A stretch of 64,000 bases of DNA from Halichondria panicea (lineage: Eukaryota; Porifera; Demospongiae; Suberitida; Halichondriidae): assembly GCF_963675165.1 (NCBI RefSeq), contig NC_087382.1, positions 4,689,963 through 4,753,962 of the forward strand, written 5' to 3'. The position numbers and the translations under genes were made by a program. A model generated the notes under the pieces. It had not been told where the DNA came from, made no database searches, and was given only the letters and a program-made list of their open reading frames with translations. Shown here in pieces: positions 4,892 to 36,313 of this stretch. The number at the start of each line of letters is the position of its first letter. The first letter of the stretch is position 1.

Positions 4892-7800
4892 ATGCTGTCT
4901 AGAAATATTCTCAGCTGGTTAGTGCTACTGACCATAGCTACTGTTACCAGGAGTGAGCACTATCACATTGTGCCAGTGAATTCAACTGACTTGTGTAATG
5001 ACTATCGAAATGGAACTTGTTTTACTCTCGAGCAGCTTGTTCGAACCGACTTGTTATCTGGTGGAGACAATCTCACCTTGAGCTTTCTACCTGGAGATCA
5101 TGTGTTAACTGAGCAGTTATTGATTCTTAACTTCTCACATGTGCATCTAACTGGCCTGACGGAAAATACAACTGTAGTGAGATTCAATAGCAATGGTGTA
5201 ATACGTTTTGTTAGTATTACCAGATTGAGTATTGAACGTTTTGGTTTCATTGGAGCGAATCTTGGACCACCAAACTCACATCAAGTATTGATCGTTGACA
5301 GTGCCCATGATGTCTATATCAATGACTGCTACTTCCTGGACTTTGATTTACTCATTCAGGCAGAACGGAACATAGTTAAGATTACTAAAACTGAAACTGC
5401 GACAATTGAGAGCACTCTCTTTATGAACAACACTGGACTGGCACTGCACCTTGAGGCTGATAATGTGTACATAACAAATAGTGTGTTCACTAGAAATGAT
5501 GGAGGTGCAGTTAACATTGAATCAAACAACGTACTGATCAACAACACAGAGTTCAACTACAACAGTGCTAAGAAAAGAGGAGCATTAAAAGTTGTATCTG
5601 GAACAGTAGTGATCACTTGGAGCACCTTCACAAATAACAATGTTTATCGGCGGTATGGTGGAGCGATTTATGTTGCCTCAGGCAGTAATGTGTCCATCTC
5701 CAATTGTGAGCTGACAAATAACAGTGCTGGCTGGAATGGTGGAGCAATTTATGTTAGATCAAGTAGTGTGTCTATTTCCGGTAGCACATTGACCAATAAC
5801 AGTGCTGACAAATTTGGTGGAGCAATTGATGTTTACTCAAGCAATGTGTCTATCTCCGACAGCATGCTGAAAAACAACACAGCTGATAATAGTGGTGGAG
5901 CGATTGGTATTTTTAAAGGGAGTGTGACCATTTCCGATAGCAACCTGACAAACAACAGAGCTAATTCCAATAGTGGAGTGATTAATGCTGACTTGGGAAA
6001 TATTTCTATCTCCAACAGCACGCTGACAAAAAACAGTGCTGGCTTGAACGGTGGAGCGATTCGTGTTATATCAGGATATGTGTCTATCTCAGACAGCACA
6101 CTGACAAACAACAGAGCTAATCGCTATGGTGGTGTGATCGATATTCAAAAAGGCAATGTTTCTATTTCCAACAGCATACTGACAAACAACAGTGGTGGCA
6201 AGAATGGTGGCGCTATTGACAATTTTTCAAGCAGTTTGTCTATCTACGACAGCAGACTGACAAACAACACTGCTCACTGGAGTGGTGGAGCGATTCATGT
6301 TAAGTCAGGGAATGTTTCTATCTCAGACAGCACACTGACAAACAACAGAGCTGACAGGAATGGTGGAGCAATTGATACTTCTTCAAGCATTGTGTCTATC
6401 TCAGACAGTAGACTGACAAAAAACAGTGCTCACTTGAGTGGTGGAGGGATCGGTGTTTACTCAGGCAGTGTGACCATCTCTGATAGCTCACTGACAAACA
6501 ATAGAGCTGATAACCATGGTGGAGCGATTGATATTGATTCAGGCATTGTTTCTATTTCCAACAGCACACTGATAAAAAATAGTTGTGGCAAGAACGGTGG
6601 AGCGATTGACAATTTTTCAGGCATTTTGTTTATCTACGACTGTACCCTGACAAACAACACTGCTAATAAGAGTGGTGGAGCGATTGGTGTTCAATCAGGC
6701 AATGTGTCCATCTCCGATAGTACGCTGACAAACAACAGTGCTCATATTGGTGGAGCGATTAATATTGACTCAGGAAGTGTATCTATCTCTGACAGCACAC
6801 TGGCAAGTAACTATGCGGATGGGAATGGTGGAGCAATTCATACTTACTCAGGCGGTGTATCCATCTTCAATAGCACACTGACAAGTAACAATGCTGCCGG
6901 GAATGGTGGAGCGATTGGTGTTTACTCAGGCAATGTGTCTATCTCAGATAGCTCACTGACAAACAACACTGCTGACGGGAATGGTGGAGTGATTCATGGT
7001 GACCTTGGCAGTATTGTGTCGATCTCTGACAGTATGCTGAACAACAACACAGCTACCTCTGGAGGAGGGATATTTCTGAGAGTAAGTACACTCTTTGTAA
7101 ATGAGCCAACAACGATCAATCTCAACACAGCACACCAGGATGGTGGAGGAATTTATGCTCATTCAAGTAGAGTTGAATTTGAATCTGCTTTACCGATTCC
7201 ATCAAATATACGAAGTGAGATTATTGAAAACATTGCTGAGAATGGTGGAGGTATTTATGCAGTAGCTACAACCATTAAACTAACTCGATCACACGTTAAC
7301 ATTGACTCAAACACAGCAACCGCTAGTGGAGGTGGAGTGTTTCTACGGCAAAGTTCAAGACTGTACTTGTTTAAAAAAAACTATGAAAGTGCAAATCAAT
7401 TATATGTCAAGCTAGCGATTAACAACAACTTGGCTCAGTACGGAGGGGGAATATTTGTGGCGGATGACACAGAGAGTGGTGCCTGCAGAGGAGGAGTTAT
7501 AGAAAATGGTGCTACTCAAACCATTTTTGAGGACTGTTTTATTCAAACAATCAATTTGAATGAAATCAAGTCGAAAATAAACCACTTCAACACATTCATG
7601 ACTAACAACACAGCTACCCTGTCAGGAGCAGACATCTATGGAGGTTTGTTGGACAGGTGTACAGCAGAACAAAATGCTGAATATCACAATTCTTCCAATG
7701 GATTGGACTACATATACAAAACTGTAAAACTGTCCACTGAGTTATCAATCTCCTCTTCACCTGTTCAAGTAACTTTTTGTAACTATACACAACGCGAAAA

Positions 7801-12648: not shown

Positions 12649-15600
12649 ATGCTGTCTAGAAATATTCTCAACTGGGTGGTGCTACTGACCCTAGCTACCG
12701 TTACCAGGAGCGAGCACTATCACATTGTGCCAGTGGATTCAACTGACTTATGTAATGGATATCGAAATGGAACTTGTTTTACTCTCGAGCAGTTTGTTGA
12801 AACCGACTTGTTATCTGGTGGAGACAATCTCGCCTTGAGCTTTCTACCTGGAGATCATGTGTTAACTGAGCAGTTATGGATTCGTAACTTCTCACATGTG
12901 CATCTCACTGGCCTGCCGGAAAATACAACTGTAGTCAGATTCCATAGCAATGGTGTAATACGTTTTGTTAGTATTACCAAATTGAGCATTGAACGTTTTG
13001 GTTTCATTGGAGTGAATTTGGGATCACCAAACTCACATCCAGGATTGATCGTTGACAGTGCCCACGATGTCTATATCAACGACTGCTACTTTACGAACTT
13101 TGATTTACTCAATCAGGCAGATATAGTTAAGATTACTAATACTCAAACTGCAACAATTGAAAGCACTCTCTTTATGAAGAACATTGATCGGGCACTGCAC
13201 ATCGAGGCTGATGATGTGTACATAACAAAGAGTGTGTTCACTAGAAATGATGGAGGTGCAGTTGACATTCAATCAAACAACACACAGATCAACAACACAG
13301 AGTTCAACTACAACAGTGCTGAGAATGGAGGAGCAGTAGAAGTGATATCTGGTACTGTAGTGATCACTTGGTGTAACTTTACAAATAACAAAGCTTCTCA
13401 GGATGGTGGAGCGCTTTATGTTACTTCAGGCAGCAGTGTGACCATATCCGATAGCAACCTGAAAAACAATGGAGCTAATTGGGGTGGAGCGATAAATGTT
13501 GATTCAGGCAATGTATCTATTTCCGGCAGCACACTGATAAACAACACTGCTATAATGAATGGTGGAGCTGTTGATGCTTCTTCCTCAAGCATTGTGTCCA
13601 TCTTTAACAGTATATTAACAAACAACACCGCTGACAGGAGTGGTGGAGCGTTTGGTGTTACTTCAAACAGCCGTGTGACTATATCCGATAGCAACCTGAC
13701 AAACAACGGAGCTAAAATTTCAGGTGGAGTGATAAATGTTGATTTAGGCAGTGTATCTATTTCCGGCAGCACACTGACAAACAACATTGCTGCAAAGAAT
13801 GGTGGAGCTATTGATGCTTCTTCCACCAGCCGTGTGACCATATATGATAGTAACCTGAAAAACAATGGAGCTAATTGGGGTGGAGCAATAAATGTTAATT
13901 CAGGCAATGTATCTATTTCCGGCAGCACACTGACAAACAACATTGCTGCAATGAATGGTGGAGCTATTGATGCTTCTTCCTCAAGCATTGTGTCCATCTT
14001 CAACAGTATATTAAGAAACAACACCGCTGATGGGAGTGGTGGAGCGATTGGTGTTCAATCAGGCAATTTGAACATATTTGATAGCAACTTGACGAACAAC
14101 AGAGCTAAAATTTGGGGTGGAGCGATAAATGTTGACTCAAGCCGTGTGTCTATCTCCGACAGTATACTGACAGATAACACTGCTGACAGTAGTGGTGGAG
14201 CTATTGATGCTTCCTCAAGCATTATGTCCATCTTCAACAGCACACTGACAAACAACAGTGCTAAAAGGAATGGTGGAGCAATTGGTGTTACTTCAGACAG
14301 CAGCGTGACCATATCCAATAGCAACTTGACGAACAACAGAGCTAAAATTTCAGGTGGAGCGATAAATGTTGATTCAGGCAATGTATCTATTTCCGGGAGC
14401 ACACTGACGAACAACATTGCTGCAATGAATGGTGGAGCTATTGATGCTTCTTCCTTAAGCATTGTGTCCATCTTCAACAGTATATTAAGAAACAACACCG
14501 CTGACGGGAGTGGTGGAGCGTTTGGTGTTACTTCAGGCAGCCGTGTGACCATATCCGATAGCAACCTGACAAACAACAGAGCTAAAATTTGGGGTGGAGC
14601 GATAAATGTTGAATCAGGCAGTGTATCTATTTCCAATAACACAACACTGACAAACAACACTGCTGATGGGAGTGGTGGAGCGATTCGTGTTCAATCAGGC
14701 AATTTGAACATATTTGATAGCAACTTGACGAACAACAGAGCTAAAATTTGGGGTGGAGCGATAAATGTTGATTCAGGCAATGTATCTATTTCCGGCAGCA
14801 CACTGACAAACAACATTGCTACAATGAATGGTGGAGCTATTGATGCTTCTTCCTCAAGCATTGTGTCCATCTTCAACAGTATATTAAGAAACAACACCGC
14901 TGACGGGAGCGGTGGAGCATTTGGTGTTACTTCAAGCAGCCGTGTGACTATATCCGATAGCAACCTGACAAAAAACGGAGCTAAAATTTCAGGTGGAGTG
15001 ATAAATGTTGATTTAGGCAGTGTATCTATTTCCGACAGCACACTGACAAACAACATTGCTACAATGAATGGTGGAGCTATTGATGCTTCTTCCTCAAGCA
15101 TTGTGTCCATCTTCAACAGTATATTAAGAAACAACACCGCTGACGGGAGCGGTGGAGCATTTGGTGTTACTTCAAGCAGCCGTGTGACTATATCCGATAG
15201 CAACCTGACAAAAAACGGAGCTAAAATTTCAGGTGGAGTGATAAATGTTGATTTAGGCAGTGTATCTATTTCCGACAGCACACTGACAAACAACATTGCT
15301 ACAATGAATGGTGGAGCTATTGATGCTTCTTTCTCAAGCATTGTGTCCATCTTCAACAGTATATTAAGAAACAACACCGCTGACGAGAGTGGTGGAGCGT
15401 TTGGTGTTACTTCAGGCAGCCGTGTGACCATATCCGATAGCAACCTGACAAACAACAGAGCTAAAATTTGGGGTGGAGCGATAAATGTTGAATCAGGCAG
15501 TGTATCTATTTCCAATAACACAACACTAACAAACAACACTGCTGATGGGAGTGGTGGAGCGATTGGTGTTCAATCAGGCAATTTGAACATATTTGATAGC

Positions 15601-18600
15601 AACTTAACGAACAACAGAGCTAAAATTTGGGGTGGAGTGATAAATGTTGATTCAGGCAATGTATCTATTTCCGGCAGCACACTGATAAACAACAGTGCTA
15701 TAATGTATGGTGGACCTGTTTACAACATTGCTGCAATGAATGGTGGAGCTATTGATGCTTCTTCCTCAAGCATTGTGTCCATCTTCAACAGTATATTAAG
15801 AAACAACACCGCTGATGGGAGTGGTGGAGCGATTGGTGTTCAATCAGGCAATTTGAACATATTTGATAGCAACTTGACGAACAACAGAGCTAACATTTGG
15901 GGTGGAGCGATAAATGTTGACTCAAGCCGTGTGTCTATCTCCGACAGCATACTGACAGATAACACTGCTGACTACGGTGGAGCGATTGATGCTTCCTCAA
16001 GCATTATGTTCATCTTCAACAGCACACTGACAAACAACAGTGCTAAAAGGAATGGTGGAGCGATTGGTGTTACTTCAAACAGCAGCGTGACCATATCCGA
16101 TAGCAATCTGATAAACAATAGAGCTGAAATTTGGGGTGGAGCGATAAATATTGACTCAGGCAATGTGTCTATCTCTGACAGCATACTAGAAAAGAACAGT
16201 GCTAAGAGGAATGGTGGAGCAATTGATACTTACTCAGGAAGTGTGTCCATCTCCAACAGCACACTTACAAACAACATTGCTGACAGGAGTGGTGGAGCGA
16301 TCGGTGTTTACTCAAGCAGTGTGTCTATCTCAGACAGCACACTGACAAACAATCGTGCTGTCGCGAATGGTGGATTGATCCATTGTGACCTTGGCAGTAC
16401 TGTGTCCATTTCGGACAGTATGCTGAAAAACAACACAGCTACCTCTGGAGGAGGAATATTTCTAAGAGTGAGTACACTCTCTGTAAATGAGCCAATAAAG
16501 ATCAATCTCAACACAGCACACCAGGATGGTGCAGGAATTTATGCTCATTCTAGTAGAGTTGATTTTCAATCTGCGTCTGCAAATATACGAAGTGAGATTG
16601 TTGACAACATTGCTGGAAATGGTGGAGGTATTTATGCAGTAGCTACAACCATTAAACTAACACACTCACACGTCAGCATCGGCTCAAACACCGCAACTGC
16701 TAGTGGAGGTGGAGTGTTTCTACGGCAAAGTTCAAGACTGTACTTATTTAAAAAAGACCATGAACATGTAGCAAAAAAGAATCAGCATAAAATGACGTTC
16801 GTATCATTATTGATCAACAACAACTCGGCTCAGTATGGAGGGGGAATATTTGTGGCGGATGACACAGAGAGTGGTGCCTGCAGAGGAGGGGTCACAGAAA
16901 CTGGTGCTATTCAAACTATTTTTGAGGACTGCTTTATTCAAACAATAAACTTAATGGAACCCGAACCCAAAATAAACCATTTCAACACATTCATGACTAA
17001 TAACACAGCTACTCAGTCAGGAGCAGATATCTATGGAGGTCTGTTGGACAGGTGCACAGCAGAACAAAATGCTGAATATTACAATTCTTCAAATGGATTG
17101 GACTACATAAAAAGAACCGTAAAACCATATACTGAGTTATCAATTTCCTCTTCGCCTATTCAAGTAACTTTTTGCAACCATTCACAAAGTGACTATGTTT
17201 TCACGAAAAAGGGACACACATACAAAATCAATGTTATGGCTTTTGACCAAGTTGGAAATCCAATCAATGCCACAATTCGCAGTTCTGTTATCACTAATAG
17301 TGGTGTTGGTCGTCTCAAAGAAGGACAATCTGAACAAGTAGTTGGCAATCAATGCACAGAATTAGAGTACAATGTATTCTCACAAGACAGCTCTGCTCAA
17401 GTAGAACTCTATGCTGATGGTCCATGCATGAATTTGGGAATTTCGAGACAAGTTATTAATATTTCTTTTCTACCCTGCACATGCCCTGTCGGACTAAAAC
17501 CAATTCAGTCCGATATTGAGTGCAAATGTGACTGTGATCCAGACTTGCAACAACTATATCAGATAACAAATTGTTCTGAGGAAAATGGGTCCATAAAGCT
17601 GGAAAGTAATAACAACATATGGATAGAATTCATAAATACTCCCAACAAAACAGGGTATGTTGTTAGTAACTGTGCATTTGACTATTGTGTAGAAAAACCA
17701 ATCAACATCAGTCTAAGCAACCCTGACGAACAGTGTGCCTTCAATCGAAGTGGTGTCTTGTGTGGAGAATGTGAACCAGGACTCAGTCTTGTGTTGGCTA
17801 CGTCAAACTGTAAAGAATGCTCTAATCTCTACCTTCTTCTACTAATTCCATTTGCACTGGCAGGCATATTGCTAGTTGCTTCAATTCTCGTACTCAATAT
17901 CACTATAGCAACTGGAAATATTCATGGCCTCATTTTTTACGCCAACATAGTAGCTGCTAATAGAGCAATTTTCCTTCCTAGTGTAAAAAATGTTTTAACA
18001 GTTTTTGTATCATGGGTGAATCTTGACTTGGGAATCGAGACTTGCTTTTACGATGGAATGAACTCTCAAGGAAAAGCGCTCATTCAACTTGTCTTTCCCA
18101 CTTACCTATTTGTTCTAATGCTTCTTATTATACTTTTGAGCAAGTACTTTGACTCATTTGCAAAGCTCCTCTCCAACAGGAACCCAGTTGCTGCCCTAGG
18201 CACACTTGTCCTACTCTCTTATTCTAAATTTTTACGGTTTATTGTTGCAGCACTACAATTCACAGAATTGCATTATCCTGACGGTTCGACCAAAGTTGTT
18301 TGGCTGTACGACGGCAATGTGCAATACTTCACTCCCATTCGCATCCCTCAGTTTGTTGCTGCTATCATAATCCTCATTGCCGGTGTATTGTTCACTGTAC
18401 TGCTCTTCTTTGGACAATGGTTTCCTCGCTGTTCCAAGGTTATGATATGCACCAAGAACACATACTACAATGGTTTCATGGACGCATACCATGCTCCATT
18501 CACTCCCAAGCATCGCTACTGGGTGGGACTGCTTCTCTTTGCTCTGATTGTTTATAATTTAGTAGCTGCTATGGATACAGACACTTCTCTCCCTGTTCTA

Positions 18601-22894: not shown

Positions 22895-22990
22895 TGTGTA
22901 TTTATAGAGTGATTGCCTTCAAAGAAGAGCATTAACTAGCAGAAGTGGTAGAACAGAAAGGAGTGCAACATCCATTATTAACAGTGAGTT
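22895..22990 (+). promoter_or_regulatory. Type B promoter of gene 3
   Basis: The region upstream of gene 3 (about 22800-22983) is nearly identical to that of gene 4 (31005-31197) but differs from genes 1-2. It has a weak TATA-like run (tgtatttataga, about 22897-22908) directly followed by agtgattgcct (22908-22918). That element is the reverse complement of aggcaatcact found next to the TATA run of genes 1-2. The stretch gcagaagtggtagaacag (about 22940-22957) resembles gene 1's gccgaagtgataaaacag. Confidence 0.5.
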
Positions 22991-23073
22991 GATGCAGTAG
23001 CATCTATATTATACAATCTGGAAGCAGTATAATTATTATAATCATTATACAACCATCATTATACATTCACCAG
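22984..23073 (+). other. Predicted 5'UTR intron of gene 3 (90 bp)
   Basis: The donor is aaca|GTGAGT at 22984; the acceptor AG ends at 23073, two bases before the ATG at 23076. The 12-bp insert between acceptor and ATG in genes 1-2 is absent. Confidence 0.5.
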
Positions 23074-23075
23074 AT

Positions 23076-26000
23076 ATGCTGTCTAGAAATATTCTCAGCT
23101 GGTTAGTGCTACTGACCCTGGCTGCTGTTACCAGGAGCGAGCACTATCACATTGTGCCAGTGGATTCAACTGACTTGTGTAATGACTATCGAAATGGAAC
23201 TTGTTTCACTCTCGAGCAACTTGTTCAAACAGACCTGTTATCTGGTGGAGACAATCTCACCTTGAGCTTTCTACCTGGAAATCATATGTTAACTGAGCAG
23301 TTATTGATTCGTAACTTTTCACACGTGCATATCACCGGCCAGAAAAAAAGTACAACTATAGTCATATTCCATAGCAATGGTGTGATACATTTTATTAGTA
23401 TTACTGAATTGAGTATTGACAACTTGGGTTTCGTTGGAGCGAATGTTGGACCACAAAACTCACATCAAATGTTGATCATTGATAGTGCCAATAATATCTA
23501 TATTGACAACTGCAAATTTTCGGACTTTGATCAAGCGGAACATTTAGTACTCAATATCTTTGCATTACTCGATCAGGTGGAAACCCACATAGTTAAGATT
23601 GCTAATACTCAAACTGCAATAATTGAGAGCACTCTCTTTATAAACAACACTGGTCGGGCACTGCACGTTGAGGCTGATAATGTGTACATAACAAATAGTG
23701 AGTTCACTAGAAATGATGGAGGTGCAGTTTACATTAAATCAAACAATATACTGATCAACATCAACAACGCGGAGTTCAACTACAACAGTGCTGAAAACGG
23801 GGGAGCAGTAGAAGTGGTATCTGGTACTGTAGTGATCACTCGGTGTACCTTCACAAATAATAAAGCTTCTCAGTTTGGTGGAGGGATTAATGTTGGCTCA
23901 GGCAGTAGTGTGTCCATCTCTGACAGTACGCTGACAAACAACGCAGCTGACTATGGTGGAGCGATTTATGCTAGATCAAGAAGTGTGTTCATCTCTGACT
24001 GTGAACTGACTAACAACAGAGCTAGAAGGAGAGGTGGAGCGATTCATGTTTACAAAGGCAAAAACGTGTCCATCTCCAACAGCACGCTGACAAACAACAA
24101 AGCTGGTGGGTCTGGTGGAGCAATTCGTGTGGAATCAAGCAGTTTGTCGATCTTTGAAAGTGAACTGACTAACAACAGAGCTAGAAGGAGAGGTGGAGCG
24201 ATTCATGTTTACAAAGGCAAAAACGTGTCCATCTCCAACAGCACGCTGACAAACAACAAAGCTGGTGGGTCTGGTGGAGCAATTCGTGTGGAATCAAGCA
24301 GTTTGTCGATCTTTGAAAGTGAGCTGACAAACAACAGCGCTAAGAGGAACGGTGGAGCGATTCGTATGCTGTCAGGCAACATGTTCATCTCCAAATGTGA
24401 GGTTACAAACAACAGAGTAGAACAAAATGGTGGAGGAGCAATTCGTGTAGGGTCAGGCAACGTGTCTATCTCCGAATGTAAGCTGACTAACAATAGAGCT
24501 AAGAAGAGTGGTGGAGCAATTTATGTTAGCTCAGGCAACGTGTCCATCTCTGACTGTACGTTCTCAGGAAATGTGTCCATCTCCGAACACAACGGTGGTG
24601 TCTATGAGGGTAAAGCCATTTCAGACAGCACCCTAACAAACAACTATGGTACAGTGATTGCTGTTTTTCGTCAATCCACCTTGATCATCAACAATACTAA
24701 TATTACTAATAGTAATGGCCCCATCTATGCTTTTGGCAGTCGAGTCGAGTTTATTGGACCTACAACACTCAGTAACAATCGCGGTGTGTTGGGTGGAACT
24801 ATAAGCCTTGACCGGAGTCAAATGTACATTAACACAGAAGGAGTTATCATCACCAACAACACAGCTATCTCTGGAGGAGGGATATTTCTGAGAGAAAGTA
24901 CACTTTTTGTGAATAAGCCAATAGAGATCTACCACAACACAGCACATAATGGCGGAGGGATTTATGCTTATTCAAGCATAATTAAATTTAATAAACCATA
25001 TTCGTCTAAACAAAGTGAAATTGCTAACAACACTGCTAAGAATGGTGGAGGCATACAAGCAGTATCTTCAACTATTGAACTTATTCAATCATACGTCAAC
25101 ATCGACTCAAACACAGCTAAAGCTAGTGGAGGTGGAATGTATTTACAGCAAAGTTCGAAATTATACCACCTTTTTAAAAAAATCGATAAATTAAAAAATA
25201 CGATTGATGTCAAGTTAATGATTAACAACAACTTGGCTCAGTACGGAGGGGGAATATTTGTGGAAGATGACACACAGACGAGTGCGTGTGGAAGAGAGGC
25301 CACAGAAACAATTTTTTCTGAATGTTTTATTCAAACTATTGAGCTTAATCAAAGAAAAACTAAAACTCTAAGCTATTTCATCACATTCATGGCTAACAAC
25401 ACAGCTACCCAGTCAGGAGCAGACATCTATGGAGGTCTGTTGGACAGGTGTATAGCAAAATATCACATCTATTCTTTAAATGGATTGGAATACATAATTA
25501 AAACTGTGAAATCCTCCTCCAAATTATCAATCTCCTCTAGGCCTGTTCAAGTAATTATTTGCAATAATGACCATATTTCTTCAAGAAAGGGGCACATGTT
25601 TAGAATCAGTGTTATGGCTATTGACCAAGTTGGAAATCCTACAAATGCCACAATTCACAGTTCTGTTATCAGTGAAAGTGGATTTGTTCGTCTCAAAGAA
25701 GGACAGGCAAAACAAGAAGTTGGCAATCAGTGCACAGAATTAGAGTACAATGTGTTCTCACAAGACAGGTCTGCTCAAGTGGAACTCTATGCTGAAGGTC
25801 CATGCATCAATTTGGGAATTTCAAGACAACTTATTAATATTTCTTTTCTACCCTGCACATGCCTTATTGGGCTCAAGCCAATTCAGTCGGATATTGAGTG
25901 CAAGTGTGACTGTGATCCAGACTTGCAAGTATATCAGATAACAAACTGTTCTGAGGAAAATGGGACCATAAAGCTGGAAAGTAATAACAACATATGGATA

Positions 26001-27602
26001 CAGTTCATAAATACTACCAATGAAACAGGGTATGTTGTTAGTAACTGTGCATTTGACTATTGTGTAGAAAAACCAGTCCACATCAGTCTAAGCAACCCTG
26101 ACGAACAATGTGCTTACAATCGAAGTGGTGTCTTGTGTGGAGAATGTGAACCAGGACTAAATCTTGTGCTGGCTACGTCAAACTGTAAAGAATGCTCTAA
26201 TCTTTACCTTCTTCTACTAATTCCATTTGCGCTGGCAGGCATATTGCTAGTTGCTTTAATTCTCGTGCTCAACATCACTATAGCAACTGGAAATATTCAT
26301 GGCCTCATTTTTTATGCCAACGTAGTAGCTGCTAATAGAGCAATTTTCTTTCCTAGTGTAAAAAACTTTTTAACAGTTTTTGTATCATGGGTGAATCTTG
26401 ACCTGGGAATCGAGATATGCTTTTACAATGGAATGAACTCTCAAGGAAAAGCGCTCATTCAACTTGTCTTTCCCACTTACCTATTTTTTCTAATGCTTCT
26501 TATTATACTTTTGAGCAAGTACTTTGACTCATTTTCAAAGCTCCTCTCCAACAGGAACCCAGTTGCTGCCCTAGGCACACTCGTCCTACTCTCTTATTCT
26601 AAATTCTTACGATTTATTGTTGCAGCACTACAATACACAGAATTGCATTATCCTGATGGTTCAACCAAGACTGTTTGGTTGTTTGACGGCAATGTGCAAT
26701 ATTTCACTTTCATTCACATTCCTCAGTTTATTGCTGCTATCATAATCCTCATTGCTGGTGGATTGTTCACTGTAATGCTCTTCTTTGGACAATGGTTTCC
26801 TCGCTGTTCGAAGGTTATAATATGGACCAAGAACACATACTACAATGGTTTCATGGACGCATACCATGCTCCATTCACTCCCAAGCATCGCTACTGGGTG
26901 GGACTGCTCCTCTTTGCTCTGATTGCTCATAATCTAGTAGTTTCCATGGCTCCAAACACGTCTCTTCCTGTTTTATCTGCTGGATGCATTGCATTCGGAC
27001 TGATAACATTGACCAACCGAGTGCACAAAAAGCAATTTAATGAATATATAGAAACATTCTTTCTGCTTAATCTCGGCATTCTATCTATTGGCACTTCCTA
27101 TGTTGTTGAAACACACCAACAGCAAGAAACATTGACCATTGTTTCAATGTCTATAGCTTTCATCCTTTTTGTGATAATAATCAGCTACCATTTCTACCAT
27201 TTCATACTAAAGACCACCAAGATATGGCTTAAGATAAAGGAAGTCACAAAGAAGTTGAGAATTGGTGCTACAGAGAAAAAGAATCAACAACCTAAGAATG
27301 CCATGGCAATGCATCAGCTTGCAGCCAATGATGACGATGAGCAACTTAATAATGCTGAGCAAATAAACATTGTGAATCCACCCCCGTACACAAATGGAGC
27401 CATGGAAGAAGCTGACCCTGATCGCTACATCACTCCTCCCATCATCAGACCAGCCACGAGGCCGGAACAGCTGAGACTCTCCTACATGGATGAACTAGCC
27501 CCCCTCACCACAGAGGACTACAGACCAGCCCCTCCCCCTCCAAGAGTCAACCGTCGTCCTGCTGTTACATACACAGAAATCACCGGACCCTGTGCGCAAT
27601 GA
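23076..27602 (+). CDS. Pmp-like beta-helix repeat, multi-pass membrane receptor-like protein, paralogue 3
   Basis: Intact frame of 1508 residues, the shortest copy. It has a signal peptide (about 1-21) and a conserved N-terminal region with CFTLEQLV and LSFLPGN. The coil array has about 12 regular coils from about residue 230 to 490, several with cysteine (SDCELTNN, SKCEVTNN), then an irregular coil region up to about 760. The Cys-rich module (about 930-1040, LCGECEPGLN) precedes hydrophobic segments (about 1041-1380). The tail has PPPY (VNPPPYTNG) and VTYTEI, so both candidate signalling motifs are intact. The ectodomain is closest to gene 4, sharing the GGAIHVYKGKN coil type, which agrees with the shared promoter and spacer. 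A perfect 159-bp duplication adds two coils. Ligand and partners are unknown. Confidence 0.88.
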   Translation: MLSRNILSWLVLLTLAAVTRSEHYHIVPVDSTDLCNDYRNGTCFTLEQLVQTDLLSGGDNLTLSFLPGNHMLTEQLLIRNFSHVHITGQKKSTTIVIFHSNGVIHFISITELSIDNLGFVGANVGPQNSHQMLIIDSANNIYIDNCKFSDFDQAEHLVLNIFALLDQVETHIVKIANTQTAIIESTLFINNTGRALHVEADNVYITNSEFTRNDGGAVYIKSNNILININNAEFNYNSAENGGAVEVVSGTVVITRCTFTNNKASQFGGGINVGSGSSVSISDSTLTNNAADYGGAIYARSRSVFISDCELTNNRARRRGGAIHVYKGKNVSISNSTLTNNKAGGSGGAIRVESSSLSIFESELTNNRARRRGGAIHVYKGKNVSISNSTLTNNKAGGSGGAIRVESSSLSIFESELTNNSAKRNGGAIRMLSGNMFISKCEVTNNRVEQNGGGAIRVGSGNVSISECKLTNNRAKKSGGAIYVSSGNVSISDCTFSGNVSISEHNGGVYEGKAISDSTLTNNYGTVIAVFRQSTLIINNTNITNSNGPIYAFGSRVEFIGPTTLSNNRGVLGGTISLDRSQMYINTEGVIITNNTAISGGGIFLRESTLFVNKPIEIYHNTAHNGGGIYAYSSIIKFNKPYSSKQSEIANNTAKNGGGIQAVSSTIELIQSYVNIDSNTAKASGGGMYLQQSSKLYHLFKKIDKLKNTIDVKLMINNNLAQYGGGIFVEDDTQTSACGREATETIFSECFIQTIELNQRKTKTLSYFITFMANNTATQSGADIYGGLLDRCIAKYHIYSLNGLEYIIKTVKSSSKLSISSRPVQVIICNNDHISSRKGHMFRISVMAIDQVGNPTNATIHSSVISESGFVRLKEGQAKQEVGNQCTELEYNVFSQDRSAQVELYAEGPCINLGISRQLINISFLPCTCLIGLKPIQSDIECKCDCDPDLQVYQITNCSEENGTIKLESNNNIWIQFINTTNETGYVVSNCAFDYCVEKPVHISLSNPDEQCAYNRSGVLCGECEPGLNLVLATSNCKECSNLYLLLLIPFALAGILLVALILVLNITIATGNIHGLIFYANVVAANRAIFFPSVKNFLTVFVSWVNLDLGIEICFYNGMNSQGKALIQLVFPTYLFFLMLLIILLSKYFDSFSKLLSNRNPVAALGTLVLLSYSKFLRFIVAALQYTELHYPDGSTKTVWLFDGNVQYFTFIHIPQFIAAIIILIAGGLFTVMLFFGQWFPRCSKVIIWTKNTYYNGFMDAYHAPFTPKHRYWVGLLLFALIAHNLVVSMAPNTSLPVLSAGCIAFGLITLTNRVHKKQFNEYIETFFLLNLGILSIGTSYVVETHQQQETLTIVSMSIAFILFVIIISYHFYHFILKTTKIWLKIKEVTKKLRIGATEKKNQQPKNAMAMHQLAANDDDEQLNNAEQINIVNPPPYTNGAMEEADPDRYITPPIIRPATRPEQLRLSYMDELAPLTTEDYRPAPPPPRVNRRPAVTYTEITGPCAQ
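24003..24320 (+). repeat. Perfect 159-bp tandem duplication inside gene 3
   Basis: 24003-24161 and 24162-24320 read as identical. The unit encodes 53 residues, two coils (a GGAIHVYKGKN type and a GGAIRVESSS type), so helical register and frame are kept. Confidence 0.88.
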
Positions 27603-30600
27603 AGTGTGAACTGCCGCCTTACTTGATACAATTTTACATGTACAGCTTAAAAAACAATGTTCGTTTTCACTAGTTAACTGCATGAATAGTTATTAGCTGT
27701 TGTTGATAATTTTAGTAAAGAGAGATAGGCTTTCTGGTTGTGCTACATGTATATAATTATGATTTGTATTGAATATTTCATTTCCACAAAATGTTGGCTA
27801 TCAAAAATTAATGCATGTTGCCTTCCCGGTTTTAGTCTTAGCTATTTTTACTATTTTGTTTCAATTGACGCGTTAGAGCTTTTCTGATTCGGGTAAAACA
27901 GTGAAGAGTTACTGAACAATGATCTATAGATAGGCCAACCTCTCAAATAGTCAGGAACAAACTCATTGTATATAATGATCTACGAATTTGACATAGCAAA
28001 GTTGACTTTCCGAAATATACTTAAGTATAGCATGCTGGGCAACTAGTGTTGTGTCTTGGGTACAACAATTGTATTTCGAAACTCCAGCTCCGTTGTTGGT
28101 GTTACAGCGGATGGTAGCAATCATCCCTATGGCCCATACTAGCTGTAATGGGATCAAAAGTACAACTACATAATGATTATAATATTAAATTTATGTATAA
28201 TCTTGTACCACCAGGACATATGCAATAATTATGTGACAGACAGTATTATGAATTAATCATCCAAGTAATAAGACAGTACAGTTATGTATGCTTAGTCGAA
28301 TACCCGCCTCAACCTGTTTACTTTTGGGATACTTTAATTAACCATTAATTTTTGAATTGAGCAGTCTCTTATACACACTCACAGATGTTGGATTGTTTAG
28401 TCGAAATCATCCACTGTTTTTTGATAGTAAAATATTATAATTATATAGCTCTGACATGTTTTCAGTTGGTAGCGCATTAGCAGATTCCCTTAGCATGGAC
28501 ATTCCTTAATTCTCATCATTATACTGAAACCATTATTTGTACCTCTCTCAAAATTAGTAGCTATATACATACAGGAATTTGCATTGAGAGCATTGCTTCG
28601 AGAGCTTGTTTACCTTGTGTACATCGGTAATATTAGCTGACACTAGCTCCAAAATATTTGACAGTAGATCTAGCAAGGGGTACTTTCTGCAATATCTGCT
28701 CCAATTGAATGGCTGTAGTATAGACGTAACTTCCATGGACTGAGCCCTTCTTTTTCCTGCTTTATGATCTGATATATAGTCATCAATTGGGTACGTGTTG
28801 TGTCTCACTTTTGATTTCAAATACATCTCGCTCAAATAATTATAGCATTGTTTTATAGTACTGCAAACTAAGTTCAGTTCACAGACTAAAATCTCGGGAG
28901 CATCATGTATATACTGAATAAATTTTTTGCTGTAGTAACCATAACAACAGTGCAAGCATAATTATGGTTGCCAATAGTGTGAGTGACTGGTTCTAGTCTG
29001 TTGCTTCAGCTTCTGTCTGATATGATGAAGGGGGGTAACGTGTTCATTGCACTTAATTATAGGGAAAGCAATATTAACGTGTTCTGTACATGCAATTAAT
29101 TTGTGTCTAAGAGCATGGTTTGCCTAACTGAATGTACATTGTCATAACAATTAATGTTTACAGGAAGTGTATAGCCTGTATAAGTAGCTTCCAGTATAAA
29201 TTAGTCTACGCTGCACGATGTTTATATATAGTTGTGAGGGTGCACACGCACGCCCCACATTTATGATCTGATAGTCATCAATTGGGTATGTGCTGTGCGT
29301 CACTTTTGATCTCAAATACATCTCACTCGAATATAATTCCCAACCAGTCTACTTAATTTATGTGCCCCACATGATTAGGAATGTGTGGTCTATGAATGCT
29401 TTGTTGGTCACGGTTGTTGTGACATGTGCACACCCAAGGCCACATATGAATGCTTGGTTAGTCCCCACTGTCAATCTCCATTAGTATGAATGTTTGGTCT
29501 ATGAATGCTTTTTTGGTGTTTGGTTGTGACACGTACACACATATGAATGCTTGGTTAGTCCCCACTGTCAATCCCCTAATGTTTGGTCGATGAATGCTTT
29601 GTTTGTTCAATGCAATAATACAGGGAAAGCAATAAAAATTATTACTAAAGTCTGAATTCAACCTTCATAAAGTTGTCAATAATTTTGTCATACTTCACTG
29701 AAATTCAAAGTTTCATTGGATTCCTTGCTGAAAAGCGCTTCTATCTATATGCTATAGAGCTGGTAAGCTCCAACCGGTTAAAAGTTAGCATTTTCCATGC
29801 TGAAGTCCCAGGCATACAGTACGTACTTGTCCACCACATGCACATAAAAGCATTAATGAAGCCATAATTGACCACATAACTTCCGGGGCCGCAAATAGAC
29901 TTTAACGTGTTCTGTTTGTCTGAGAGTATGATTTCAATTAATTTGTGCAGGAAGTTAAGCTTCCAGCATAAGTCTATATGTGCGTTGAGTTTTACCCCGG
30001 AAGTTATGTGGTCAACTGATTATGGCTTCATTTATGCTTTATGTGGTTGACAGGGAGTTCTACATGGAAAATGCTAACTTTTAGCTGGTTGCAGCTTATC
30101 AGCTCTACAGCATATAGATAGAAGTGCTTTTTAACAAGGAATTAATCTAATGGTATATGAAAATTTGAAATTTCAGTGAAGTATGACAAAGTTATTACAA
30201 CTTTATGAAGGTCAAACTCAACAAAATAGACTTTAGTCAGCCTCTATTGTGTTGCATGGTATACGTTGTGACACAGGCCCATGCAGGGCCACATTTGAAT
30301 GCTTGTCTACACATGCAATGTAGCCATGCACATTTACAAAATCTCCCAGCATGAAATCAGAATTAATGTGTGTACGGGGACATTATATGGGGTGTGTGCT
30401 CTTGACCGTAACCAAGCATTTGTGACCAAGCATTCATATGTGGGGTACACATGCACATTAATTCTGATTTCAATGAATGCTTGGTCAATCCCCACTGTCT
30501 ATACAACTAGGTAAATAAAGTGAAGTGGGCTGGCTTCTGACACACTAATGGCTGCATGCATGCGCAACATTGGGAGAGTATAGATAGACAAAAATGCTCT

Positions 30601-31100
30601 ACTGTTTATATCAATTTTTTTGTTTGATTGTGACATTATTGTATAACGGGAAAATTTAGCGAGTATTATATTTGACGAATGAAGCATTTGAACAAGTCCA
30701 CTGGTAAACTTATCATTTTGGCAAAATTCACCAAATCGCCAAAATAATTAAGACGCTCGCCAACTTTTCCTGTTATACAGTTCAATTAAATGGGCAGGGA
30801 AGGGGGCGTGTCTCCAACACATTTTGCGCGGCCCTGTTCCACAACCTCACCAATGTGGTAAATTTAATTTCCTGGATCTGCTCCTGCAGTTCATTGTGTA
30901 CACATCACCACGACTCTATATATGCACGCCTAAAGCACACCAATGCACAATGAATGCAACCGCTTGAAGCATGCAGTACCAATGCAGGAACTCTCCAGGA
31001 GATACTGCAATGTTTATAGTACAACACTGATATTGGAATAACACTGTTATATAACCACAGAAAACATTGGAATGACACTATTACACATACATGTATGTTA
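27603..31100. repeat. Spacer copy B between genes 3 and 4
   Basis: This is the second copy of the spacer at 19219-22895, differing by small indels and substitutions and lacking the segment around 22520-22795. It includes the foldback element at about 29655-30225 and repeat monomers at 29350-29600 and 30290-30500. A 133-codon minus-strand frame at 28554-28955 is open here but shifted by a 7-nt indel in copy A. I see no gene in it. Confidence 0.75.
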
Positions 31101-31108
31101 TAACTGCA

Positions 31109-31283
31109 TGTGTATATATAGAGTGATTGCCTTCAAAGAAGAGCATTAACTACCAGAAGTGGTAGAACAGAAAGGAGTGCAACATCCATTATTAACAGTG
31201 AGTTGATGCAGTAGCATCTATAATTATTATACATTCTGGGAGCAGTATAATCATTTTCAATCATCATTATACATGCACCTCAG
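31109..31283 (+). promoter_or_regulatory. Type B promoter and 5'UTR intron of gene 4
   Basis: A TATA-like run tgtgtatatataga (about 31110-31122) is followed by agtgattgcct (31122-31132), as before gene 3. The predicted intron runs from the donor aaca|GTGAGT at 31198 to AG at 31283 (86 bp), two bases before the ATG. Confidence 0.5.
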
Positions 31284-31285
31284 AT

Positions 31286-34200
31286 ATGCTGTCTAGAAAT
31301 ATTCTCAGCTGGTTAGTGCTGCTACTGACCCTAGCTACTGTTACCAGGAGTGAGCACTATCACATTGTGCCAGTGGATTCAACCGACTTGTGTAATGACT
31401 ATCAAAATGGAACTTGTTTTACTCTCGAGCAGCTTGTTCAAACATACCTGTTATCTGGTGGAGACAATCTCACCTTGAGCTTTCTACCTGGAGATCATGA
31501 GTTAACAGAGCAGTTTATGATTCGTAACTTTTCACACGTGCATATCACCGGCCAGAAAGAAAGTACAACTGTGGTCAGATTCCATAGCAATGGTACTATA
31601 CGTTTTGATGGTACTGCTGCATTAAATATTGAACGCTTGGGTTTTGTTGGAGCGAATGTTGGAGAACGAAACTCACGTCAAAGTGTGCTCATTGACGGTT
31701 CCAATGATATCTATATCGACAGCTGCTACTTTTCGGACTTCGAATTACTGAATCAAGTGGAAGCCCATAATAATGATGTACTCCGTATCACTAATACTCA
31801 AACTGCGACAATTGAGAGCACTCTCTTTATGAACAACACTGGTCGGGCACTGCACGTTGAGGCTGATGATGTGCACATAACAAATAGTGTGTTCACTAGA
31901 AATAATGGAGGTGCAGTTGACATTGAATCCAACAACTCTCTGATCAACAACACAGAGTTTAACAATAACAGTGCTGAGATTGGAGGAGCAGTAGAATTGG
32001 CATCTGGTACTGTAGTGATCACTTGGTGTAACTTCACAAATAACAAAGCTTATCTGTACGGTGGAGCGATTTATGTTAGCTCAGGCAATAGTATGTTCAT
32101 CTCTGACTGTACGCTGACAAACAACGCAGCTGACTATGGTGGAGCGATCTATTCTAGATCAAGAAGTATGTTCATCTCTGACAGTACGCTGACAAACAAC
32201 ACAGCTGACTATGGTGGAGCGATTTATGCTAGATCAAGAAATGTATTCATTTCTGACTGTGAGCTGACTAACAACAGAGCTAAGAGAGGCGGTGGGGCAA
32301 TTCATGTTTACAAAGCCAAAAATGTGTCCATCTTCAACAGCACGCTGACAAACAACAAAGCTGACGGGTCTGGTGGAGCGATTCATGTGGAATCAGGCAG
32401 TGTGTCGATCTCTAACTGTGAGCTGACAAAAAACAAAGCTAACTATGATGGTGGAGCAATTCATGTTGGATCAAAAAGTGTGTTCATCACCGACTGTGAG
32501 CTGACTAGCAACAGAGCTAGAAGGAGAGGTGGAGCGATTCATGTTTACAAAGGCCAAAACGTGTCCATCTCCAACAGCACGCTGACAAACAACAAAGCTA
32601 ACAGGAGAGGTGGAGCGATTCATGTTTACAAAGGCCAAAACGTGTCCATCTCCAACAGCACGCTGACAAACAACAAAGCTAACAGGAGAGGTGGAGCGAT
32701 TCATGTTTACAAAGGCCAAAACGTGTCCATCTCCAACAGCACGCTGACAAACAACAAAGCTAACGGGTCTGGTGGAGCGATTCATGTGGAATCAGGCAGT
32801 GTGTCGATCTCTAACTGTGAGTTGACAAAAAACATAGCTGACTATGATGGTGGAGCAATTCATGTTGGATCAAAAAGTGTGTTCATCACCGACTGTGAGC
32901 TGACTAGCAACAGAGCTAGAAGGAGAGGTGGAGCGATTCATGTTTACAAAGGCAAAAACGTGTCCATCTCCAACAGCACGCTGACAAACAACAAAGCAGC
33001 TTACGGGACTGGTGGAGCGATTCGAGTAGAATCAGGCAGTTTTTTATCGATCTTTGAAAGTAAGCTGACAAACAACAGCGCTAAGAGGAGCGGTGGAGCG
33101 ATTTATATGCAGTCAGGTAACGTGTCTATCTCTGAATGTAAGCTGACTAACAACAGAGCTAAGAGGAGTGGTGGAGCAATTTATGTTAGATCAGGCAACG
33201 TGTCCATCTCTGACAGTACGTTCTCAGGAAATGTGTCCATCTCTGAACACAACGTTGGTGTCTATGAGGGTGAAGCCATTTCAGACAGCACGCTAACAAA
33301 CAACTATGGTACAGTGATTGCTGTTTCTCAATCCACCTTGATCATCAACAACACTAATATTACTAATAGTAATGGCCCCATCTATGCTTTGGACAGTCGA
33401 GTAGAGTTTAATGGACCTACAATACTCAGTAACAATCGTGGTGTATTGGGTGGAGCTATAAGCCTTGACCAGAGTCAAATATACATTAACACAGAAGGAG
33501 TAATCATCACCAACAACACAGCTATCTCTGGAGGAGGGATATTTCTGAGAGAGAGTACACTCTTTGTAAATAAGCCAATAAAGATCTATCAAAATACAGC
33601 ACATAATGGCGGAGGGATTTACGCTCATTCAAGCAGAGTTGAGTTCGAATATATGTTAGCAATTCTTCAGAGTACAACTAATCAGAGTGTGATTGCTCAC
33701 AACATTGCTAAGAATAATGGTGGAGGTATACATGCAGTATCTTCAACAATTAAACTTACTCAGTCGTACGTCAACATTGACTCAAACACTGCAAATGCTA
33801 ATGGAGGTGGATTATATCTACAGCACGGTTCAAAACTCTACCTACGTAAACAGACTGAAGAATATAGGTTTGGAAATCAATTATATGTCAAGTTAATGAT
33901 CGACAACAACTCGGCTCAGTATGGAGGGGGAATATTTGTGGAAGATGACACACAGAGGAGTGCTTGTAGAGGAAGGTTAAAAAAAAGTAATGCTATTCAC
34001 ACCATTTTTGCTGGTTGCTTCATTCAAACAATTAAACTGTATGATATCAGCATAATTAATCCTAACAATAAAAACTTTTTAAACACGTTTATGACTAACA
34101 ACACTGCTACCCAGTCAGGAGCAGACATCTACGGTGGTCTGTTGGACAGGTGTACAGCTAATAGAAATGCTGAGTATCACACTTTTTTTAGATTGGACTA

Positions 34201-36313
34201 CATAAAAAGAACTGTTAAACCCTCTACAAAGTTATCAATCTCCTCTTCGCCTGTTCAAGTAATTGTTTGTAACTATTCACAAAGTGATTATAATTCTACA
34301 AGAAAGGGACACACGTATAAAATTAGTGTTATGGCTGTTGACCAAGTTGGAAATCCAATGAATACCACGATTCACAGTTCTGTTATCACTAAGAGTGGTG
34401 TTGGTCGTCTCAAAGAAGGACAGGCTGAACAAACAGTTGGCAATCAGTGCACAGAATTAGAGTACAATGTATTCTCACAAGACAGTTCTGCTCAAGTGGA
34501 ACTCTATGCTGATGGTCCGTGCATCAATTTGGGAATTTCAAGACAACTTATTAATATTTCTTTTCTACCCTGCACATGCTCTATTGGGCTCAAGCCAATT
34601 CAGTCAGATATTGAATGCAAGTGTGACTGTGATCCAGTCTTGCAACAAGATTATCTAATAACACACTGTTCGGAGGAAAATGGAACTATGAAACTGGAAA
34701 GTAACATATGGATAAAAGTCGCAAATACCACCAACGGAAGTGGTTATGTTGTTAGCAATTGTACATTTGACTATTGTGTACAAAAACCAGTCAACATCAA
34801 TCTAAGCAACCCTGACGAACAGTGTGCCTACAATCGAAGTGGTGTCTTGTGTGGAGAATGTAAACCAGGACTCAGTCTTGTGTTGGCTACGTCAAGATGT
34901 GCACAATGCTCTGATGTTTACCTTCTTCTACTAATTCCATTTGCCCTGGCAGGTATATTGCTAGTTGCTTTAATTCTCGTGCTCAACATCACTATAGCAA
35001 CTGGAAATATTCATGGCCTCATTTTTTACGCCAACATAGTAGCTGCTAATAGAGCAATTTTCTTTCCTAGTGTAAACAACTTTTTAACAGTTTTTGTATC
35101 TTGGGTGAATCTTGACCTGGGGATCGAGATATGTTTTTACAATGGAATGAGCTCTCAAGGAAAAGCGCTCATTCAACTTGTCTTCCCCACTTACCTATTT
35201 GTTCTAATGTTTCTTATTATACTTTTGAGCAAGTACTTTGACTCATTTTCAAAGCTCCTCTCCAACAGGAACCCAGTTGCTACCCTAGGCACACTCGTCC
35301 TACTCTCTTATTCTAAATTCTTACGTTTCATTGTTGCAGCACTACAATTCACAGACTTGCATTATCCTGACGGTTCAACCAAAGTTGTTTGGTTGTTTGA
35401 CGGCAATGTGCAATACTTCACTCCCAATCACATCCCTCAGCTTGTTGCTGCTATCATAATCCTCATTGCTGGTGGATTGTTCACTGTAATGCTCTTCTTT
35501 GGACAATGGCTTCCACGCTGTTCCGAGGTTATGATATGGACCAAGAACACATACTACAATGGTTTCATGGACGCATACCATGCTCCATTCACTCCCAAGC
35601 ATCGCTACTGGGTGGGACTGCTCCTCTTTGCTCTGATCACTCATAATCTAGTAGCTGCCATGGATACAGATACTTCTCTCCCTGTTCTATCAGCTGGGTG
35701 TATTGCATTCGGACTGATATCATTGAACAACCGAGTGTATAAAAAGCGCCTTAATGAATATCTAGAAGCATTATTTCTACTTAATCTCGGCATTCTATCT
35801 ATTGGCACTTCCTATGTTGTTGAAACACGACTACAGCAAGAAACACTGACCATTGTTTCAATGTCTATAGCATTCATCCTTTTTGTGACAATTATCAGCT
35901 ACCATTTCCACCACTTCATACTAAACAACACCAAAATATGGCTTAAGATAAAGGAAGCCACAAAGAATTTGAGAACTACTACAGAGAAAAAGAACCAACA
36001 ACCTAAGAACGCCATGGCAATGCATCAGTTCGCAGCCAATGATGACGATGAACAACTTAATAATGCTGAGCAAACAGACATTGTGAATCTACCCCCTTAC
36101 ACAAATGGAGCAGTGGAAGAAGCTGACCCTGATCGCTACATCACTCCTCCCATCATCAGACCAGCCACGAGGCCGGAACAGCTGAGACTCTCTTACATGG
36201 ATGAGCTAGCCCCCCTCACTACAGATGACTACAGACCAGCCCCTCCCCCTCAAAGAGTAAACCGTCGTCCTGTTGTTACGTACACAGAAATCTCCGGGCC
36301 CTGTGCGCAATGA
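31286..36313 (+). CDS. Pmp-like beta-helix repeat, multi-pass membrane receptor-like protein, paralogue 4
   Basis: Intact frame of 1675 residues. The signal peptide has one extra leucine compared with the other copies. About 17 regular coils span residues 210-660. They include a run of three near-identical 27-residue coils (GGAIHVYKGQNVSISNSTL type) and several with cysteine (SDCELTNN, TDCELTSN). An irregular coil region up to about 860 is followed by the Cys-rich module (about 1095-1208; LCGECKPGLS) and the hydrophobic segments (about 1209-1550, DAYHAPFTPKHRYW motif kept). In the tail the PPxY site has become LPPY (VNLPPYTNG), so the classical WW-domain ligand is lost or altered, while VTYTEI is intact. 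Its promoter and upstream spacer are shared with gene 3. Function is unknown; a surface receptor is the likely class. Confidence 0.88.
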   Translation: MLSRNILSWLVLLLTLATVTRSEHYHIVPVDSTDLCNDYQNGTCFTLEQLVQTYLLSGGDNLTLSFLPGDHELTEQFMIRNFSHVHITGQKESTTVVRFHSNGTIRFDGTAALNIERLGFVGANVGERNSRQSVLIDGSNDIYIDSCYFSDFELLNQVEAHNNDVLRITNTQTATIESTLFMNNTGRALHVEADDVHITNSVFTRNNGGAVDIESNNSLINNTEFNNNSAEIGGAVELASGTVVITWCNFTNNKAYLYGGAIYVSSGNSMFISDCTLTNNAADYGGAIYSRSRSMFISDSTLTNNTADYGGAIYARSRNVFISDCELTNNRAKRGGGAIHVYKAKNVSIFNSTLTNNKADGSGGAIHVESGSVSISNCELTKNKANYDGGAIHVGSKSVFITDCELTSNRARRRGGAIHVYKGQNVSISNSTLTNNKANRRGGAIHVYKGQNVSISNSTLTNNKANRRGGAIHVYKGQNVSISNSTLTNNKANGSGGAIHVESGSVSISNCELTKNIADYDGGAIHVGSKSVFITDCELTSNRARRRGGAIHVYKGKNVSISNSTLTNNKAAYGTGGAIRVESGSFLSIFESKLTNNSAKRSGGAIYMQSGNVSISECKLTNNRAKRSGGAIYVRSGNVSISDSTFSGNVSISEHNVGVYEGEAISDSTLTNNYGTVIAVSQSTLIINNTNITNSNGPIYALDSRVEFNGPTILSNNRGVLGGAISLDQSQIYINTEGVIITNNTAISGGGIFLRESTLFVNKPIKIYQNTAHNGGGIYAHSSRVEFEYMLAILQSTTNQSVIAHNIAKNNGGGIHAVSSTIKLTQSYVNIDSNTANANGGGLYLQHGSKLYLRKQTEEYRFGNQLYVKLMIDNNSAQYGGGIFVEDDTQRSACRGRLKKSNAIHTIFAGCFIQTIKLYDISIINPNNKNFLNTFMTNNTATQSGADIYGGLLDRCTANRNAEYHTFFRLDYIKRTVKPSTKLSISSSPVQVIVCNYSQSDYNSTRKGHTYKISVMAVDQVGNPMNTTIHSSVITKSGVGRLKEGQAEQTVGNQCTELEYNVFSQDSSAQVELYADGPCINLGISRQLINISFLPCTCSIGLKPIQSDIECKCDCDPVLQQDYLITHCSEENGTMKLESNIWIKVANTTNGSGYVVSNCTFDYCVQKPVNINLSNPDEQCAYNRSGVLCGECKPGLSLVLATSRCAQCSDVYLLLLIPFALAGILLVALILVLNITIATGNIHGLIFYANIVAANRAIFFPSVNNFLTVFVSWVNLDLGIEICFYNGMSSQGKALIQLVFPTYLFVLMFLIILLSKYFDSFSKLLSNRNPVATLGTLVLLSYSKFLRFIVAALQFTDLHYPDGSTKVVWLFDGNVQYFTPNHIPQLVAAIIILIAGGLFTVMLFFGQWLPRCSEVMIWTKNTYYNGFMDAYHAPFTPKHRYWVGLLLFALITHNLVAAMDTDTSLPVLSAGCIAFGLISLNNRVYKKRLNEYLEALFLLNLGILSIGTSYVVETRLQQETLTIVSMSIAFILFVTIISYHFHHFILNNTKIWLKIKEATKNLRTTTEKKNQQPKNAMAMHQFAANDDDEQLNNAEQTDIVNLPPYTNGAVEEADPDRYITPPIIRPATRPEQLRLSYMDELAPLTTDDYRPAPPPQRVNRRPVVTYTEISGPCAQ
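32528..32763 (+). repeat. Three tandem 81-bp coil units inside gene 4
   Basis: Units start at 32528, 32609 and 32690 with an exact 81-bp period. Each encodes one 27-residue coil, and the copies appear identical up to the end of the third unit, where the linker changes. Larger flanking blocks (about 32400-32527 and 32771-32937) are also duplicated around the triplet. Confidence 0.88.

Follow-up and report, generated by a model that had tools for sequence, protein, structure and literature searches.

The window, the whole 64,000-nucleotide stretch of Halichondria panicea contig NC_087382.1 that was analyzed, carries four single-frame genes on the forward strand, P1 to P4. Their products of 1641, 2189, 1508, and 1675 aa contain no internal stops, and the open reading frames together with the Pfam matches confirmed the initial annotation of four intact frames of 1508-2189 residues sharing one domain order. 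The start of P1 is most likely the ATG at 4892. In window positions, the genes and their parts are:

4892..9817, + strand: gene P1, 1641 aa from the ATG at 4892 (frame open from 4817)
about 5655-6998, + strand: P1 regular coils
from 8339, + strand: P1 Cys module and membrane domain
9440-9814, + strand: P1 tail
12649..19218, + strand: gene P2, 2189 aa, with the longest coil array among P1-P4 (43 GGx motifs)
about 13403-16360, + strand: P2 regular coils
from 17743, + strand: P2 Cys module and membrane domain
18850-19215, + strand: P2 tail
19219..23075, no strand: spacer P2-P3 (2.5 kb downstream of P2 and downstream of P3 are 92.6% identical)
23076..27602, + strand: gene P3, 1508 aa
about 23910-24550, + strand: P3 regular coils
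26118-27224, + strand: P3 Cys module and membrane domain
27225-27599, + strand: P3 tail
27603..31285, no strand: spacer P3-P4 (1.7 kb upstream of P3 and upstream of P4 are 94% identical)
31286..36313, + strand: gene P4, 1675 aa
about 32060-33218, + strand: P4 regular coils
from 34832, + strand: P4 Cys module and membrane domain
35939-36310, + strand: P4 tail

The order of parts in all four proteins is N-terminus, conserved N-terminal region, coils, pre-membrane region, an LCGEC four-cysteine module, hydrophobic segments and tail. The N-termini are hydrophobic (MLSRNIL..WLVLLTLATVTRS, ending in TRS before EHYHIVPV) and, judged by eye, look like cleavable signal peptides. After LCGEC there are 8-12 overlapping hydrophobic stretches above threshold, which we interpret as 8-10 segments, and the tail, taken to start at WLKIK, is 122-125 aa long. 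Each gene is preceded by a GTGAGT 88-120 bases upstream of the start codon and a CAG 5 or 17 bases upstream of it (GTGAGT-to-ATG intervals 4770-4892, 12529-12649, 22984-23076, and 31198-31286); in these four genes, which are paralogs, the pairs possibly mark a short 5' UTR intron, and a GTGAGT-type donor is absent before a further family member, L033. The window also holds a 282-aa frame (14691-15539, - strand) that runs antisense through the P2 coils and is most likely incidental to the repeats; pieces similar to actin-related protein 3 (named by eye; about 40444-43137, - strand), which adjoin the array and are apparently split by introns; and a 491-aa frame (59777-61252, + strand) that has SH3 domains toward either end and may be a single exon of a larger adaptor gene.

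The description of the coils as Pmp-like GGAI repeats was borne out. Pfam Chlam_PMP matched all four proteins (E 2.4e-30 to 3.2e-52), the right-handed Beta_helix family matched three (not P2), and NCBIfam POMP_repeat scored 61.1 bits in P3 against a cut-off of 15. GGx[ILFVM] motifs number 24, 43, 16, and 23 in P1 to P4, versus means of 0.98, 1.88, 0.64, and 0.83 and maxima of 5, 8, 4, and 6 in 1000 shuffles of each protein. Of 72 coils of 24-28 residues, the coil statistics draw on the 40 (38 distinct) whose length is exactly 26 residues. Positions 1-4 (GGAI), 8, 13, 18, 21, and 23 are nearly fixed, while positions 5, 7, 17, 22, 24, 25, and 26 have entropies of 2.4-3.2 bits. At these seven variable positions dN/dS was 1.23 over all 703 pairs, 1.00 over the 131 pairs of at least 75% identity and 1.34 over the 28 pairs of at least 85%, versus 0.34, 0.40, and 0.50 at the remaining positions in the same three sets. 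With columns picked from P2 only and then applied to P1, P3, and P4, the values were 0.96 for the variable and 0.38 for the other positions. Such a pattern fits a fixed scaffold with what would be a freely varying face, and it falls short of proving positive selection; relaxed constraint would equally give a value near 1 at the variable positions. We infer that these seven positions point outward. In published models of chlamydial Pmps the GGA and FxxN motifs are buried inside the coil (PMC10715098), and we see a parallel in the entropy pattern found here.

Coils multiply within genes. Among 26-residue coils, a DNA identity of 97% or more is reached by nine of the 225 within-gene pairs and by none of the 555 between-gene pairs, and the nearest coil lies in the same gene for 29 of the 40 coils, versus 11.5 expected from coil numbers. 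The coil regions of the window genes show tandem-repeat structure.

P1 to P4 belong to a much larger family. Searches of the 131-Mb genome (39 contigs) with the membrane and tail part gave 91 matches for P3, 109 for the divergent member L032, and 108 for the more divergent L057. The union of these searches comprises at least 119 distinct loci (two rows of the P3 search were left out as second pieces of listed loci), 82 of them on contig C6, which holds 5.8% of the genome. A search with L064, a distant member found via the DUF7630 model, returned 106 rows, representing 29 old loci and 77 new ones that were told apart from the 119 by eye; the 77 distant loci are spread over 16 contigs, and 63 have frames of 1100-1400 aa. 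The membrane module is present at no fewer than 196 loci, broken copies included, and all locus counts are lower bounds, with 89-109 of 398-445 candidates (20-27%) scored per search. The lineage-specific expansion proposed initially is supported by these at least 119 plus 77 loci. Decay is common in the family: of the 119 loci, 15 are interrupted by a stop within the match, another 36 have frames shorter than 1250 aa, and 68 have a frame of at least 1250 aa and no stop. Frame and stop values are those of the first listing for each locus (C14:1550604 has stops in the P3 search and none in the L032 search). Many family frames are unbroken over 1100-2847 codons. The wnt family, which is not known outside animals, gave 10 matches on three contigs, in pieces, and none in 14 control genomes, which supports an animal genome; the fragmentation of the wnt and Arp3-like matches suggests ordinary introns elsewhere in this genome. 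Among matches to Calx-beta, which we take as a stand-in for sponge aggregation factors, there is a tandem at C2:270833-278225, many at a step of about 406 bases with nearly equal scores.

The four genes had been described as a tandem array of four; they are tandem, but they form the right-hand end of an array of 11 loci (C6:4645126-4724842, neighbors less than 30 kb apart being joined), 10 of which are on the + strand. The sole member in opposite orientation (C6:4685143-4686576, - strand) has a frame of 1087 aa. The identity of the P2 and P3 downstream flanks and of the P3 and P4 upstream flanks (92.6 and 94%, respectively) indicates that each duplication took in the gene along with its spacer. 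P1-P4 form a clade with L002, a C4 copy (support 0.949), in a tree of 56 membrane domains, and when the same tree is rooted on L064, all members except L064-L068 form one group (support 0.836). At five places in C6:1.27-1.48 Mb, a + strand member found with L064 lies end to end with a - strand member of the long-tail type, the matches being 0.7-1.3 kb apart, an arrangement that would fit the copying of convergent pairs as single units.

Coil-like repeats were found upstream of the membrane module in all 17 members whose coil region was read (the four window genes, L031-L035, L056, L057, L061, and L064-L068). The label "chimeric" in the initial annotation, in the sense of a recent fusion, was therefore not borne out, and the combination of coils and membrane module is, on this sequence evidence, old within this genome. 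A Pfam beta-helix or Pmp repeat scored above cut-off in 12 of 15 scanned members (not in L064, L065, or L066). Of the distant members L064-L068, one (L067) has Chlam_PMP and one (L068) has Beta_helix above cut-off, and GGA-type coils are readable in L065-L068. Regular coils are few in the distant members, which suggests that the long-tail clade acquired its regular, expanded coil array secondarily.

The membrane domain most likely makes nine crossings. Loops rich in K and R alternate along it, with the C-terminal side inside, and these loop charges support, as probable, the earlier placement of the tail in the cytosol. Counting against this receptor topology is an N-x-T sequon that 37 of 37 members carry directly behind the first helix, where the predicted loop faces the inside. 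There is a possible re-entrant segment at H62-78 or H85-102, the latter containing the invariant residues W92, N94, D96, and C102. The dN/dS of the membrane part is 0.27-0.52 over the six window-gene pairs, which, along with the coil counts, agrees with the claim of strong coil-number variation on a conserved membrane module.

The membrane module matched no Pfam family up to E 10, with no transporter or channel family among the matches, and it has no relative among PDB sequences. Pattern-based scans gave no prokaryotic or viral sequence relatives; sequences of the same membrane type probably occur in other invertebrate genomes. Structure prediction, as advised in the initial annotation, gave a medium-confidence model of the membrane domain (pLDDT 72.5, pTM 0.73; an earlier model had pLDDT 41.6), for which Foldseek returned no convincing solved fold (best E 0.3). 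A transporter identity, which had been named as an outcome that would count against the receptor reading, thus did not appear in Pfam, PDB sequences or Foldseek. GPCR chains, with their seven-helix fold, head the Foldseek list (E 0.3 or worse, TMq 0.22 or less); the window proteins have no 7tm Pfam match and probably about nine crossings. PF06011 (fungal-type TRP/FLC) is absent among the Pfam matches up to E 10 and had no match genome-wide, in a search in which no control matched either. Among the matches listed, the only one with near-global overlap of the membrane model is A0A5J6VLW6, a Megaviridae environmental protein of 316 aa (TM 0.48/0.54, probability 0.90, E 0.71, 11% identity), and this likeness to a predicted structure is a lead. 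DUF7630 (PF24633), a 45-position Cys module, scored 16.6-19.0 bits in the window proteins against a cut-off of 27; four genome matches were just above cut-off (27.6-27.9). Three of these fall on the CGEC site of family members, and the fourth is in L064, which scored 23.5 by hmmscan.

Tail motifs were counted in 54 distinct tails (61 before copies were removed) among L001-L063 with the frame ending inside the locus, and PPxY and VTHTEI in a smaller set of 35. The initial annotation described a conserved tail of about 125 residues; its length holds, but it is the last ~75 residues that are well conserved, the linker that follows the last helix being variable. A YxxP followed by two branched residues (YxxP-II; mostly DRYITPPII) is present in 49 of the 54 tails and missing from five, and QLR with a spaced D in 49. 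A second tyrosine site (EDYRPAP-like) was found in 50 by an anchored pattern and in L048 (ADY), giving 51 of 54. Between the two tyrosine sites lies an LSYM-type stretch in 36 tails and a REPALD-type stretch in 15. YxxP-II is kept beside a freely varying linker in L056, L059, and L062, whose membrane parts are 51-52% identical to that of P3. Crk-type SH2 adaptors prefer YxxP, and the ITIM consensus is (S/I/V/L)xYxx(I/V/L). The ITIM-like end VTYTEI occurs in P1, P3, P4, and L002, and VTHTEI in 23/35 tails; an ITIM was rejected as a family feature because only 4 of the 54 tails end in this way. Sorting-type motifs are NPxY (15/54, in no window gene), Yxx-hydrophobic (36/54) and acidic dileucine (33/54), and PPxY occurs in 6/35. 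Among the window genes dN/dS ranges from 0.29 to 1.12 in the tail (0.54-0.71 in the N-terminal region) and, since it reaches 1.12, constraint on the tail appears visible over the family and not over the window array. The distant members L064-L068 have short tails without YxxP-II; L065-L068 end in PLLE-like motifs (LQDPLLE, LEKPLLE, LKEPLLE, and YREPLIA), L064 has LRESLLD near its end, and by eye the PLLE-like ends resemble the LREPALD of 15 of the 54 long tails. A reasonable reading would be that a short sorting or adaptor motif is old and that tyrosine sites were added later in the expanded clade.

We put at about even the chance that P1-P4 act as recognition receptors at the cell surface, in a family that has expanded in this lineage and carries a phosphotyrosine-type tail. 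A diversified recognition receptor is favored because of the receptor-like anatomy, which the domain order and the inside tail support as first proposed, the varied face on a fixed scaffold, the recent duplication within the array and the conserved tail sites. The beta-helix would stand out from the cell, its variable face binding ligands, most likely microbial or particle surfaces; we rank such ligands first on two grounds, the adhesion that trichomonad Pmp-like proteins promote and the spread of the family beyond any one locus. Either the membrane domain or clustering would relay binding to the cytosolic tail, where phosphorylated YxxP would dock a Crk-type SH2 adaptor and so drive uptake or an immune-type response. 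New specificities would arise through gene duplication and through gain, loss and substitution of coils, with one chromosome as the main nursery of new copies. This receptor reading is weakened by the loose dN/dS of the tail and N-terminal region among the window genes, the common decay, the gaps in YxxP-II, the small number of tails with PPxY or VTYTEI and the medium-confidence membrane model. The interpretation offered initially is thus supported in part, with anatomy, variable coils, expansion and inside tail upheld and recent fusion not.

We rank the rival explanations, whose probabilities overlap with one another, in the order uptake without signaling, self recognition, gated channel and near-neutral expansion. 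The proteins could serve feeding and the sorting of symbionts as scavenger or endocytic receptors whose tail would direct sorting and would not signal, which we regard as a minority possibility to be taken seriously; this explanation shares its ligand with the preferred one and differs in the role of the tail. The PLLE-like ends of L065-L068 with their resemblance to LREPALD, and the NPxY of 15 tails, speak for it, as does the report that trichomonad Pmps carry NPx[YF] endocytic tails (PMC6701047), but NPxY, Yxx-hydrophobic and acidic dileucine motifs are all less constant than YxxP-II. Allorecognition or homotypic adhesion, in which variable coils would bind the same or sister proteins on neighboring cells and the tail would report match or mismatch, we hold to be rather improbable. 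It is consistent with the clustered, tandem, length-variable genes, 82 of 119 on C6, and their tyrosine-bearing tails, and a graft study indicates a polymorphic genetic system behind sponge graft specificity (PMC5450542). However, cell adhesion genes were reported as not significantly enriched in the same study (PMC5450542), family members lie on at least 16 contigs, unlike a single locus, and Calx-beta lies mostly elsewhere (one C6 row among the matches listed, of 151 matches).

It is unlikely that these are channels or transporters with a large sensor arm, in which the membrane domain would do the work and the coils would be a mechanical or ligand gate. About nine crossings and the possible re-entrant segment with its invariant residues would suit such a protein, but the Pfam, PDB and Foldseek results above argue against it, as does PF06011, for what a model without a matching control can tell. 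Least probable, in our judgment, is a largely neutral tandem expansion, in which an intronless gene would have multiplied through duplication and slippage and most copies would do little. The recent gene-plus-spacer duplication at 92-94% identity, the tandem-repeat coils, the stops and short frames, and dN/dS values that are close to 1 at the variable coil positions and reach 1.12 in one pair's tail are what this would produce, whereas 68 of the 119 loci keep long open frames, the coil framework and membrane part are constrained and tail motifs are kept across clades.

Much of what makes up these proteins has counterparts. PF02415 is reported to include proteins from over 100 non-chlamydial species (PMC10715098), and animal Pmp-repeat proteins may already be among its members. 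The proteins resemble chlamydial Pmps (PF02415) in coil repeat and beta-helix, and differ in their animal genome, helical multi-pass membrane domain and lack of an autotransporter barrel. A bacterial autotransporter was rejected based on this helical C-terminus and on the absence of the barrel PF03797 from all four window proteins in Pfam at E up to 1. Trichomonas vaginalis has 48 Pmp-like surface proteins, and such proteins raise adhesion when expressed (PMC6701047). So far as that source describes them, trichomonad Pmps share with ours the GGA[I/L/V]/FxxN coils, the lack of an autotransporter domain, a membrane anchor and a cytoplasmic tail with tyrosine-type motifs, but they have a C-terminal transmembrane domain and NPx[YF] where we find about nine crossings, a four-Cys module and a 125-residue YxxP tail. 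A trichomonad-type Pmp was rejected because of the 8-10 hydrophobic segments and because NPxY is limited to 15 of the 54 tails, none of them from a window gene. The expanded sponge NLR repertoires (PMC12909245) are likewise a large, species-specific, putative recognition expansion in an early animal; unlike the proteins here, they are NACHT-LRR proteins with other domains. The repeat, eukaryotic Pmp-like surface proteins and sponge NLR expansions (PMC12909245) were thus known already. For animals, our searches of the open-access literature listed neither coils joined to this membrane module and tail nor the size of this family or its concentration on one chromosome. Lamprey VLRs and plant LRR kinases likewise keep the repeat scaffold constant while certain positions and the number of repeats vary; they are built on LRRs and the proteins here on a beta-helix, and nothing points to somatic assembly of these genes.

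Tentatively, and with less confidence than for the receptor reading itself, we suggest that the genome, perhaps that of an early-branching animal, encodes a variable receptor system with close to 200 copies or more, nursed on one chromosome. With a Pmp beta-helix in the role of the LRR, an unsolved membrane fold and a phosphotyrosine tail, it might be an independent route to diversified immune or self recognition. The membrane module is in any case a widespread family in this genome for which no Pfam match or solved structure was found. If the receptor reading is right, a large candidate recognition repertoire would be added to an animal lineage, and the seven coil positions, the YxxP site and one chromosome in which to look for polymorphism would provide handles on it.
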